A model generated the notes under the pieces. It made no database searches. It was not told the DNA's origin and worked only from the letters and a program-made list of their open reading frames with translations. DNA of 64,000 nucleotides, taken from an uncultured Pelagibacteraceae bacterium. GTDB lineage: Bacteria > Pseudomonadota > Alphaproteobacteria > Pelagibacterales > Pelagibacteraceae. Of the stretch, positions 28,366 through 62,869 are shown in pieces. The translations under genes were made by a program, and so were the position numbers. The stretch lies in contig CABYIV010000001.1 in NCBI GenBank assembly GCA_902519255.1, positions 248,001 to 312,000 on the forward strand, given 5' to 3'. Numbering within the stretch: the first letter of the stretch is position 1; each line of letters begins with the position of its first letter.

Positions 28366-29435
28366 GTAGTTGGCCTTAGTCTTTGCCTCAAATCATCAAT
28401 TGGTTTGAGTGAATTACCTGATTTATAATACCAAAAAGTCCAACCGTTACAGCTCTCAGCACCTAATATTTGTGCAGCAACTTTATGAATTGATCCTTCT
28501 GATTTCCGATATTTTATACTACCATCAATCATAATTTTCGCATTGATTTGTTTTTTTTGATCAAAAATTTCAGTACCAGGTTTAATAATTCCTAATTCAA
28601 CCAAAGATCCAAATGGCACTCTTGGTTTGGATCTATTATTTTTTATAGTATCTAAATATTCATCTTCTATAATTTTTGTATTTTTAATTCTTTTACTTGC
28701 AGCTTCAAAATAGTTTTTTTCTTTTTCTATACCAAAATAATTTCTACCTAACTTTTTTGAAACTACAGCAGTTGTTCCCGTACCGAGAAACGGGTCCAAT
28801 ATTAAATCGCCTTTATTAGACGATGCTAATATAATTCTGTGCAATAAAGATTCTGGCTTTTGCGTTGAGTGAACTTTATTACCATTATTTTTAAGTCTTT
28901 CTTTTCCATTACATATAGGTAAATTCCATGTAGATCTCATCTGTAGATCATCGTTTAAACATTTAAGTGATTGATAATTAAAAGTATATTTTGATCCTTC
29001 ACTTTTTGATGCCCATATAAGTGTTTCGTGCGCATTCGTAAAACGTGTTCCTCTAAAATTTGGCATAGGGTTATTTTTGTTCCAAATCACATCATTTAGT
29101 ATCCAAAAACCTAAATCTTGCATTTTTGAACCAACTCTAAAAATATTATGATAACTTCCTATAACCCATATAGATCCATTTTTTTTTAAAATTCTTTTAC
29201 ATTCTTTGAGCCATTGAACTGAAAACTCATCATAACTTTTAAAACTATCAAATTTATCCCACGCATCGTCTACAGCATCGACTTTAGATCTATCAGGTCG
29301 ACTTAATTCTTTTTTCAGTTGAAGGTTGTAAGGTGGATCTGCAAATATCAGATCAAAACTTTCAGCCGGAATTTTTTTTAATTCCTTAATACTATCTCCA
29401 TTAATAATTTTATTTTTTATGTCTGAAATGATCAT
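28362..29435 (-). CDS. ccrM: Cell-cycle DNA adenine methyltransferase CcrM (GANTC)
   Basis: 357-residue beta-class N6-adenine methyltransferase. Motif IV is DPPY (33-36) in IFADPPYNLQL and the SAM-binding motif follows in the order of this class as LDPFLGTGTTAVVSKKLGRNY. The C-terminal domain (about 275-357) with SLVELGIIKPGTEIF, IHKVAAQILG and SCNGWTFWYYK is the extra domain special to CcrM, which methylates GANTC in alphaproteobacteria. The partner restriction enzyme is absent, as expected for an orphan regulator. It follows rnhB, a neighbour seen in many alphaproteobacteria. Its upstream region carries two GANTC sites inside the candidate promoter. Confidence 0.95.
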   Translation of the reverse strand: MIISDIKNKIINGDSIKELKKIPAESFDLIFADPPYNLQLKKELSRPDRSKVDAVDDAWDKFDSFKSYDEFSVQWLKECKRILKKNGSIWVIGSYHNIFRVGSKMQDLGFWILNDVIWNKNNPMPNFRGTRFTNAHETLIWASKSEGSKYTFNYQSLKCLNDDLQMRSTWNLPICNGKERLKNNGNKVHSTQKPESLLHRIILASSNKGDLILDPFLGTGTTAVVSKKLGRNYFGIEKEKNYFEAASKRIKNTKIIEDEYLDTIKNNRSKPRVPFGSLVELGIIKPGTEIFDQKKQINAKIMIDGSIKYRKSEGSIHKVAAQILGAESCNGWTFWYYKSGNSLKPIDDLRQRLRPTT

Positions 29436-29448
29436 TTTATATTTTTGA

Positions 29449-29477
29449 ATTAGACTCCAGTCAGGAGTCTACGTCAA
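29449..29477 (-). promoter_or_regulatory. Candidate ccrM promoter containing two GANTC sites
   Basis: On the minus strand TTGACG (29477-29472), a 17-bp spacer, and TCTAAT (29454-29449) form a good sigma70-like promoter; the start point would fall only about 7 nt before the ccrM ATG. The spacer and the first bases of the -10 hold GACTC (29469-29465) and GAGTC (29457-29453), both CcrM targets. Confidence 0.65.
29452..29470. repeat. Perfect inverted repeat with GANTC in each arm
   Basis: AGACTCCagtcaGGAGTCT: 7-bp perfect arms around a 5-nt loop, 17-35 bp upstream of ccrM. No T-run follows on either strand, so it is not an intrinsic terminator. Each arm contains one GANTC methylation site. Confidence 0.9.
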
Positions 29478-29516
29478 CCTGTGATTGAATTTATTGATTG
29501 ATAGTTGTTATGATTA

Positions 29517-30089
29517 TTATTTAAGACTCAATATCTTGTGTATTGGTTGGAAGGTTTTTCTATGAAATCTAGTCACTCCAAATTTTTTAATAGCTTTAAT
29601 ATGATCTTTAGTTCCATAACCTGCATTATTATCCCAGCCGTATTTTTTAAAAGAAAAAGACATCTTTTTCATTAGCTTATCTCTTTCAACTTTAGCAATA
29701 ATCGATGCGGCTGAAATTTCAGGAATTTTTTCATCACCTTTTACAATAGTTTTAATTACATAATTTTTTAAGTCTGGTGGTTTATTACCATCTATTAAAA
29801 CTTTTTTAGGTTTCAATTTGAGTTTCTTAATTGCTCTTTTCATTGAAAGTAGGCTAGCATTTAAAATATTAATTTTTTCAATTTCCTTTATTGATGCAGA
29901 TCCTAACGCCCAAACTGAATTTTTTTTTATATATTTAGCTAAAGTTTCCCTTTGAATTTTGTTAAGTTTTTTTGAATCTTTAAGAATTTTTCTATTAATT
30001 TCTTTATTTAATATAACAGCAACTGCATAAACTGGTCCTACAAGGCTCCCTCTTCCAACTTCATCAACCCCAGCAATAATTTTTTTCAT
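29517..30089 (-). CDS. rnhB: Ribonuclease HII
   Basis: 190 residues. The catalytic acidic set of RNase HII is visible: Asp9 and Glu10 in AGVDEVGRGSLVGP, the Asp in VLIDGNKPP, and ISAASIIAKVERD further on. It removes RNA, including single ribonucleotides, from DNA. It is 19 bp after the uracil-DNA glycosylase gene and 81 bp before ccrM; that gap, one of the largest in the window, carries the candidate ccrM promoter. Size is normal for bacterial RNase HII. Confidence 0.95.
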   Translation of the reverse strand: MKKIIAGVDEVGRGSLVGPVYAVAVILNKEINRKILKDSKKLNKIQRETLAKYIKKNSVWALGSASIKEIEKINILNASLLSMKRAIKKLKLKPKKVLIDGNKPPDLKNYVIKTIVKGDEKIPEISAASIIAKVERDKLMKKMSFSFKKYGWDNNAGYGTKDHIKAIKKFGVTRFHRKTFQPIHKILSLK

Positions 30090-59644: not shown

Positions 59645-62600
59645 TTAATTATCTTGCAAAGATTTGACTCTTAATTTTGTAGTTTTTAAAGATTTTATTG
59701 CTTCTAAAAATGAATAGGCTGTAGACATATTCGTACAATAAGGAATTTTGTTTGCAAGAGTTCCTCTTCTTAATGCTCTTGCATCACTAATTCTGTGCTC
59801 AGAGTTTCCACCTCCAGTATTTATTACCAATGATATTTTTTTAGAATTTAAAACATCTACTATATGTGGTCTACCACTACTGACTTTATTAATTTTTTTA
59901 CATTTAATTCCATTTTGTTTTAAAATCTCTGAAGTTCCTTTAGTTGCAGAAAGTGTAAATCCAAGTTTTATCAATCTTTGTGCAACACCAATTATTTCTT
60001 GTTTATGCGAGTCTTTTACCGATAAGAATGCCATTCCTTTTGTAGGTAAAGAATTTGAAGCAGCAATTTGACTTTTTGCAACAGCCATTCCAAAATCATC
60101 ATCAAAACCCATTACCTCTCCAGTAGACTTCATTTCAGGACCAAGCAATAAATCGCTATCTGGGAATTTATTAAATGGAAACACAGCTTCTTTAACAGCA
60201 AATTTTTTATTGGTTTTATATTTTAATTTATATTTACTTAACTTTTCTCCAGACATTATTCTTGATGCAATTTTTGCAAGCGGCATACCATTTGCTTTTG
60301 AAACAAAGGGAACAGTTCTGCTTGCTCTAGGATTAACTTCAATTACGAAAATTTCATCATTTTTAATTGCGAATTGAATATTTAAAAATCCTTTAACTTT
60401 TAAAGCCAAAGCTAATTTTCTTGTTTGTATTTTAAGTTCTCTTAAAAGGTTTGCTTTTATTGATACTGGCGGTAAGCAACACGCAGAGTCTCCAGAATGA
60501 ATCCCAGCTTCTTCAATATGTTGCATTATTCCAGCAACATAAACATCTTTTCCATCAGAAATTGCATCTACATCTACTTCCATTGCACTATCAATAAATT
60601 TGTCAATTAAGATTGGATTTTGTTCTGATGCTTTGAAGGCTTCATTTATAAATTGTTTCAATTGGCTTTTGTCATGAACAATTTCCATTGCCCTACCTCC
60701 TAAAACATAAGAAGGTCTAACAACTACAGGCAATCCAATTTTTTCAGCAACATTAATAGCTTGATCGAATTTGTAGGCTATTCCGCTTTCAGCTTGTTTT
60801 AATTTAAGCTTTATAAGCAACTCTCTAAATCTGTCTCTATCCTCTGCAAGATCAATCGATTTATATTGTGTCCCTAAAATAGGTAATTTATTTTCATCTA
60901 AAAATTTAGCTAATTTGATAGGAGTTTGGCCTCCAAATTGTGCAATAATCCCAATTAGATTTCCTTTTGATTTTTCTTTTAAAATTATATTCTCAACATA
61001 CTCTTCAATTAAAGGTTCAAAGTATAATCTATCACTTGTATCATAATCTGTAGAAACAGTTTCAGGGTTACAATTTATCATTATTGTCTCAAAACCTGCT
61101 TCTTTTAAAGAAAAGCTAGCTTGACAACAGCAGTAATCAAACTCTATACCTTGACCAATTCTATTTGGTCCTCCACCTAAAATTATTATTTTCTTTTTAT
61201 TGCTTGGCTCAGCTTCGCATTCAGTTTTAATAGAAAAATTTCTTTGATATGTAGAATACATATAAGGTGTGAAAGATTTGAATTCAGCAGCACAGGTATC
61301 AACTTTCTTAAAGACAGGAATAACTTTTAGCCCTTTTCTTCTGGATTTGACGATTGTTTCTTTTTGACCAGTCAATTGTGAGATCTTTTTATCAGAAAAG
61401 CCTATTGATTTTATTCTATTAAATTCCTCATAAGTTTTGGGTACTCCTTTTGAGATTAGTATTTTTTCTTCATCAACTATTTCCTTAATTTGATTTAAAA
61501 ACCAAGGATCTACCTTTGATAATTTATATATAATATCTAAAGAAATTTTTTTTCTAAAAGCCTCAGCAATTAGAAGTAATTTGTTTGGAATATTGATTTT
61601 TAAATTTTTTAGGATTTCTTTTTTTGAATAGTTAAAAATATTATCTAATCCTGATAAACCAGTTTCAAGTGAAACTAGGGCTTTTTGAAAAGATTCTTTG
61701 AAGTTTCTCCCAATTGCCATTGCTTCACCAACTGATCTCATGGATGTGCCTAAAATTGCTTCTGTGTCAGAAAATTTTTCAAACGTAAACCTTGGAATTT
61801 TTGTTACAACATAATCGATTGTTGGTTCAAAAGAAGCTGGTGTTACTTTAGTTATTTCATTTTGTAGTTCATCGAGAGTATAACCAACTGCTAATTTCGC
61901 AGCCACTTTTGCTATTGGAAAGCCAGTTGCTTTAGAGGCTAATGCAGATGATCTTGAAACTCTGGGGTTCATTTCAATAATTACCATTCTTCCGTTTTTG
62001 GGATTTATGGCGAATTGAACATTTGAACCTCCTGTCTCAACACCTATTTTTCTTAAGCAAGCAATAGATGCATTTCTCATTACTTGATACTCTTTATCTG
62101 TCAATGTTAATGCCGGAGCTATAGTAACAGAGTCACCAGTATGAGTTCCCATTGGATCAACATTTTCTATTGAACAGATAATTATACAATTATCATTTTT
62201 ATCTCTAACGACCTCCATCTCAAATTCTTTCCAACCATCCAAACATTCTTCAACCAAAACCTGATTTTGAGGAGACTCATTCATTCCTTCTTTAACAATT
62301 TTAAAAAAATCTTTTTTTGTTCTAGCAATACCTCCACCCAATCCTCCCAAAGTAAATGAAGGTCTAATAATTGCAGGTAATCCTATTTTGTTTAAACATT
62401 TTTTCGCATTTGAAAATTTATTGAGAACTTCTGATTTTGGTAAATCGATACCAATATCAGACATATTTTTTCTAAATTTTTTTCTATCCTCAGCGTTCGC
62501 TATTGCCTTGGAGTTAGCTCCTATAAGTTCAATTTTATGCTTTTTAAGTAAACCAATTTTCTCTGCATTAATTGCAAGATTTAATGCTGTTTGACCACCC

Positions 62601-62869
62601 ATAGTAGGCAAAATAGCATCAGGCTTTTCTTTTTTGATGACTTCCTCTAGTATTTCTAAAGATATTGGTTCTATATAAGTCTTATCAGCAACACCAGGAT
62701 CAGTCATTATAGTTGCTGGATTTGAATTGATTAATATTACTTTATACCCCTCATCCTTTAATGCTTTACACGCCTGCGTTCCTGAATAATCAAATTCACA
62801 AGCTTGACCAATAATAATTGGTCCAGCACCAATGACTAAAATTTTTTTAATGTCTTTTCTTTTTGGCAT
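59645..62869 (-). CDS. carB: Carbamoyl-phosphate synthase large chain
   Basis: 1,074 residues with two homologous ATP-grasp halves. The first starts [30 protein letters not shown] (in part) and the second [21 protein letters not shown] about 545 residues later. [19 protein letters not shown] and [19 protein letters not shown] are the paired signature segments. The C-terminal domain (last about 130 residues) is the regulatory MGS-like domain. It makes carbamoyl phosphate for pyrimidines and arginine with CarA, whose 3' end it overlaps by 23 bp. Complete. Confidence 0.97.

Follow-up and report, generated by a model that had tools for sequence, protein, structure and literature searches.

What do the relatives of this SAR11 genome keep upstream of ccrM: the two GANTC sites that the encoded methyltransferase would itself modify, or the hairpin that the two sites can form with each other? 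And what would read such sites in a promoter? The stretch of DNA analysed here (the window, 64 kb) belongs to contig 1 of an assembly that totals 1.07 Mb in 33 contigs, and the closest named genomes carrying this ccrM are uncultured Pelagibacteraceae. We find that the relatives keep the two GANTC sites as a pair and do not keep the hairpin.

The ccrM product matches PF01555 and PF18755/RAMA above cut-off in a profile search and aligns with the solved CcrM structure 6pbd at an E-value of 7.8e-139. Against the NCBIfam CcrM model NF050803 it reaches an E-value of 7.6e-175, but its 581 bits stay below the cut-off of 830. An 81-bp gap separates ccrM from rnhB, and both genes are on the minus strand. 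The features of the locus are collected in Table 1.

The promoter proposed in the initial annotation is borne out by the sequence: TTGACG and TCTAAT stand before ccrM, 17 bp apart; the spacer contains GACTC, and GAGTC overlaps the -10 element. The transcript start, about 7 nt before ccrM (ATG at 29435), is a prediction on which the promoter positions of the sites rest, and both sites fall upstream of it. CcrM targets are thus present within the predicted core promoter of ccrM, as had been claimed, and their positions are kept in relatives. On this predicted promoter, GANTC lies within the -35/-10 region, as it does in the GcrA/CcrM class of sigma70 promoters.

In the -10 element a C replaces the usual A, and a consensus promoter scan, which demands that A, does not list the promoter. 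GANTC is depleted more than 2-fold in the window, with 78 copies found against a shuffle mean of 177. Neighbouring GANTC pairs 9–13 bp apart occur at two places in the 64 kb, one being the ccrM promoter and the other lying inside the long ORF 59645–62869.

Table 1. Features of the ccrM locus, in window coordinates, with the evidence for each
Feature	Position	Strand	Evidence
ccrM, GANTC adenine-N6 DNA methyltransferase, 357 aa	28362..29435	minus	profile and structure matches
-10-like TCTAAT, C at -11 atypical	29449..29454	minus	sequence
Inverted repeat, two sites and flanks, 8-bp arms, 5-nt loop	29451..29471	.	sequence
GANTC site 2 (GAGTC), overlaps first two -10 bases	29453..29457	minus	sequence
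GANTC site 1 (GACTC), in spacer, 3 bp after TTGAC	29465..29469	minus	sequence
-35 element TTGACG	29472..29477	minus	sequence
TTCAATC, genus-conserved element	29483..29489	minus	0–2 parsimony changes per column, 115 sequences
rnhB (RNase HII), upstream neighbour of ccrM	29517..30089	minus	PF01351, E 2.3e-41
Third GANTC, in rnhB 3' end, 47 bp before TTGAC	29525..29529	minus	sequence

A further element, TTCAATC, is almost invariant in the genus and stands 5 bp before the GTTGAC-type -35. Together with the -35 it gives TCAA-N7-TTGA, which we take to be the geometry of a CtrA box, though SAR11 reportedly lacks ctrA.

The two sites do form a perfect inverted repeat, as first described, and its arms of 8 bp are one pair longer than was claimed then. 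It reads TAGACTCC-TGACT-GGAGTCTA. Folded as single-stranded DNA, the 81-nt rnhB–ccrM gap gives -8.6 kcal/mol with a z of -3.59, and the 7-bp-arm pattern has a single place in the own genome assembly, read on both strands. By itself the hairpin is not notable since 7-bp inverted repeats with a loop of 3–8 are common; perfect ones are found in 169 of 2368 81-nt windows, a background that counts 7-bp rather than 8-bp arms.

That the palindrome is the functional unit, as a hairpin or as the operator of a dimeric regulator, is hardly credible. Its perfect 8-bp arms in the window and the low z of the single strand speak for it. Nevertheless, 7-bp arms are perfect in only 27 of the 119 twin-site upstreams of the genus, in 0/20 of the second SAR11 family (f2) and in 0/25 of the class, and the two sites start anywhere between 9 and 12 bp apart. 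Neither the arms nor their distance is conserved as in a palindromic operator. The hairpin or operator reading was rejected on this lack of arm conservation, and with it goes the earlier suggestion of a binding site for a dimeric regulator.

The sites themselves fare differently. We detected ccrM in 83 of 101 near relatives and in 136 of 147 genomes of an order sample, and upstream sequences were fetched for part of these ccrM genomes together with 80 loci from named genomes. Both GANTC sites occur in 119 of the 130 distinct upstreams of the window's genus; ten of the remaining 11 retain site 2 and one retains site 1, which brings site 2 to 129/130 and site 1 to 120/130. In all 119 twin-site upstreams site 2 lies 15 bp from TTGAC and is followed by T-A-A/C-T, and site 1 lies at 3 bp (93) or 4 bp (26). 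The comparison of the rnhB–ccrM gap, proposed at the outset as a check, hence finds both the sites and their positions conserved.

For the parsimony counts, a tree was used that comprised 115 distinct loci of the genus, reduced from 136 after one short locus (L224) among 137 had been dropped; L032–L048, which contain little coding sequence, were left out. Each sequence was anchored by TTGAC and TCTA, so the zero change in their columns holds by construction. Not one change falls in the three free columns of site 2. The defining columns of site 1 change 0–3 times among the 98 sequences of the same spacing, against 6–15 times in most free spacer columns. A freer N in site 1 was not seen within the genus, where by parsimony it changes no more often than its neighbours; all four bases occur at it, both within the genus and within the class.

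Beyond the genus the layout is kept in some lineages and shifted in others. Family f2 has both sites in 20 of 24 upstreams and site 2 in 24/24, at 14 bp after TTGAC, and the four upstreams without site 1 keep site 2. Site 2 is found 14–15 bp past TTGAC except in one SAR11 genus, where the distance is 20. The standard twin spacing appears in 0/18 from the other genera of the window's family; in ten of these the second site lies at 20 bp, usually together with a first one at 4 bp, and in four (L124, L232, L236 and L237) no GANTC was seen by eye in the ccrM promoter. CcrM and GcrA are both present in all 18 genomes of these genera.

Two side observations concern the last group. L124, L232 (genus g5), L236 and L237 (genus g7) encode CcrM and GcrA and have lost the promoter GANTC. 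The -10 element of genus g7 is TTTATT instead of TCTAAT.

A whole-genome pattern search places the twin motif in 106 of 147 order genomes. Among 113 listed places, 103 are at ccrM as judged by eye from coordinates and sequence, and in the own genome the motif occurs only at ccrM. A genome-wide regulon in the own genome was considered and rejected, as TTGAC-N2/17-GANTC gave 36 matches, fewer than the 85 obtained with the reversed pattern as a control. Thirty of the 36 match loci were examined: 27 lie inside ORFs of at least 100 aa, two are the same ccrM place and one (L318) is outside ORFs. This last match, at G000:C5:24442-24467, reads TTGACTTCCGAGTTCGGAATGGAATC and looks like 5S rRNA, not a promoter.

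The class sample rules out a SAR11-specific architecture. The twin motif was scored by coordinates, with at most 150 bp allowed between it and the ccrM match that follows. Of the 191 Alphaproteobacteria sampled, at least 40 from at least 32 families have a twin site at this place, including at least 38 non-SAR11 genomes from at least 31 families. The earlier view of a switch peculiar to a streamlined genome does not survive this recurrence across the class. Among 67 class ccrM upstreams, a set that includes one locus (L291) with just 37 nt upstream, the strict twin motif is found in 19 against 0.005 expected from shuffles, the loose one in 26 against 0.01, and TTGAC-N0/17-GANTC in 45 against 1.4.

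The offsets from TTGAC to GANTC in the 66 distinct class upstreams cluster at 3–5 bp, with 34 counts, and at 14 bp, with 30, while offsets of 6–13 bp have 0–1; the reverse strand of the same upstreams gives 0 counts at offsets 3–21. Flanking columns were compared at loci with an anchored TTGAC (132 of the genus, 40 of the class and 24 of f2). The class -10 is CANNNT, its first base being the C of site 2 (40 loci). An extra GANTC stands 5–30 bp before TTGAC in 34 of the 40 class loci and in 24/24 of f2; in the genus, GANTC 46–48 bp before TTGAC has 97 occurrences in the 132 upstreams. Because the same offsets recur across the class, the twin-site layout looks old, and it appears to have been lost or shifted in some lineages.

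A candidate reader of the mark is encoded in the same genome. GcrA, the known reader of methylated GANTC, was left out of the initial annotation, and its gene is on contig 2 (PF07750, E 2.4e-32). The product aligns with the Caulobacter GcrA structure 7ye1 at an E-value of 1.1e-19 over residues 1–49 and 98–146, which covers the methyl-GANTC DNA-binding part (1–49) and the sigma-interacting part. The genome therefore holds CcrM and a GcrA with both parts, as GcrA/CcrM promoters need. PF07750 is matched in 85/101 near relatives, 128/147 of the order and 122/191 of the class, counts that overstate GcrA since the model also passes its cut-off in the control genome of Sulfolobus acidocaldarius, so that a match alone is no proof.

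In the class set, GcrA and the loose motif show no association: 22 of 59 upstreams from genomes with GcrA contain the motif, as do 3 of the 7 whose genomes gave no GcrA match and the single one with a weak match. GcrA was rejected as a predictor of the motif for this reason, and the result argues against strict dependence or for missed GcrA genes. The own gcrA promoter shows no sign of a site: its 1301-bp stretch has 4 GANTC against 3.3 expected and none between 126 and 888, with gcrA starting at 505.

As reported in PMC3667746, methylated GANTC is bound by GcrA, which brings RNA polymerase to promoters that carry the methyl mark. Such recruitment is reported also in PMC7403470, according to which GcrA binds sigma domain 2, promotes open complexes and has a flexible linker at 46–107. 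In Caulobacter, transcript starts that have GANTC between the -10 and the -35 are described as switching on at 40–60 min, and GANTC is placed at -29 in ctrA P1 and at -24 in podJ P2 (PMC4287350). In the field, GANTC is reported methylated in Pelagibacter/SAR11 at 71–95% by sample (PMC9516812). The survey in PMC7987155 counts ccrM among the predicted core targets of GcrA in many orders, by motif presence without position, lists few likely GcrA targets in Ca. P. ubique and gives YGAKTCK as the extended GcrA motif of the Caulobacterales.

That extended motif is unmatched by A-GACTC-C and G-GAGTC-T on either strand, by eye. A Caulobacterales motif may not hold for a SAR11 GcrA, so the promoter would work like the GcrA/CcrM class and is not a proven member.

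Our favoured reading, to which we give about even chances, is that ccrM has a GcrA-read, methylation-dependent sigma70 promoter closing the CcrM feedback loop at ccrM itself. It builds on the sites, their conserved positions and the presence of GcrA and CcrM; we infer that both sites are methylated, that GcrA binds them and which sign the loop has. Relative to the predicted start, site 1 would be centred near -25 and site 2 would lie at the upstream edge of the -10. CcrM would methylate both, and GcrA, with its N-terminal domain on m6A-GANTC and its C-terminal domain on sigma domain 2, would read them and aid RNA polymerase at the weak -10. Replication of the locus would turn the sites from fully to hemi-methylated, so ccrM output would change, and CcrM activity would feed back on ccrM transcription via GcrA. 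The feedback is most likely a methylation-dependent activation that replication and protein turnover would keep within bounds.

Several observations favour this GcrA-read promoter. The genome encodes a GcrA with methyl-GANTC- and sigma-binding parts, and the offsets of the sites from TTGAC are rigid. The N of site 1 takes all four bases in the genus and in the class, as expected of a methylation site. The weak -10, TCTAAT here and CANNNT in the class, suits an activator, and a site distance that varies by at most 3 bp with site 2 fixed to the -35 fits a DNA-binding domain tethered by a flexible linker. The reading is weakened by the missing association of GcrA with the motif in the class, by the family genera that have CcrM and GcrA yet 0/18 with the standard spacing, by the loss of site 1 in 10/130 genus upstreams, often among near-identical strains, and by the within-genus N of site 1 being no freer and YGAKTCK unmatched.

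The main rival, possible but rather unlikely in our judgement, does without GcrA: full methylation would block sigma70 directly and shut ccrM, and hemi-methylation would open it. m6A at the -10 edge would weaken the sigma70 contacts, and the negative loop would yield a CcrM pulse. Such a switch is suggested by the overlap of site 2 with the -10 and its better retention in the genus (129/130 against 120/130), has a reported precedent in Agrobacterium gcrA (PMC11514494) and fits the absence of association between motif and GcrA. However, it leaves unexplained a spacer site that is off the sigma contacts and is kept in at least 31 further families, and the documented reader is the GcrA–CcrM partnership (PMC3667746).

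Occlusion is more doubtful still. Here RNA polymerase or GcrA on the promoter would exclude CcrM, and the hypomethylated sites would sense the CcrM level. A Pelagibacter MAG does have 42 of 1719 GANTC always unmethylated, mostly intergenic, in an account that does not name ccrM among them (PMC9516812), whereas occlusion requires no fixed geometry. Least probable of these three is plain promoter conservation, with GAGTCTAAT simply the -10 region of the lineage and GANTC incidental; we consider it very improbable. Within the genus, site 2 hardly varies, and neither do the bases that follow it, so there site 2 alone is indistinguishable from a -10. But in the class both offsets return with other letters, at the N of both sites and in the -10 flanks, and the window is depleted of GANTC in general. 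The class motif excess and the offset data disfavour plain conservation.

Among known systems, Caulobacter ctrA P1, mipZ and podJ P2 share with this promoter GANTC in or beside the -10/-35 elements and the encoded CcrM and GcrA. Here, in contrast, two sites are fixed from the -35 with one on the -10, the regulated gene is the writer itself, YGAKTCK is unmatched and the GcrA dependence is putative. The Caulobacter ccrM promoter is reportedly CtrA-activated with GANTC sites in its leader. It has GANTC in cis at ccrM likewise, whereas the SAR11 sites lie upstream of the predicted start, and no Caulobacter-type CtrA box TTAA-N7-TTAA was seen by eye in 29436–29516. Pelagibacter is said to lack ctrA (PMC2877005, PMC7987155). 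The initial statement that GANTC controls ccrM in Caulobacter is in line with a report that methylation 'most probably' acts on ccrM itself (PMC3973325).

The Agrobacterium gcrA promoter is likewise rich in GANTC and likewise drives a component of the CcrM/GcrA loop. It belongs to another gene, and methylation of its six upstream GANTC is reported to repress it without GcrA, even in E. coli (PMC11514494). The predicted core GcrA regulon agrees with our reading in having ccrM as a likely target across orders (PMC7987155). That ccrM is a GcrA target was thus already predicted; in the open-licence literature searched, we found no description of the fixed twin-site geometry.

The class pattern search also gave TTGAC-N4/5-GANTC-N6/7-GATTC at places other than ccrM, and 20 of them were fetched (L321–L340). 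The downstream ORF matches PF04977 (FtsB/DivIC) in 12 of the 12 tested, and these ftsB-type ORFs start 9–13 bp after site 2. Five loci of family f2 (L359, L364, L367, L368 and L370) have GATTC-N9-GATTC upstream of ftsB. In the genus g1 loci inspected, ftsB closely follows the preceding reading frame and no such GANTC pair is seen.

A broader reading, which we hold only tentatively, is that of an ancient methylation-gated core promoter with GANTC at 3–5 and 14–15 bp from the -35, used by ccrM on itself and by ftsB at slightly longer spacing. One geometry would then tie DNA methylation to its own maintenance and to septum formation, and in SAR11, said to be without CtrA, it may be what remains of a cell-cycle clock.

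In summary, the vague prediction that ccrM is a GcrA target becomes a position-by-position promoter rule, which frames the question of which site, strand and methylation state set ccrM output. The same layout links the writer's own promoter to the division gene ftsB. Its recurrence in other Alphaproteobacteria suggests a feedback of long standing that couples DNA marking with the gene of the marking enzyme. It offers a simple candidate for the timing of DNA methylation in the most abundant ocean bacteria.
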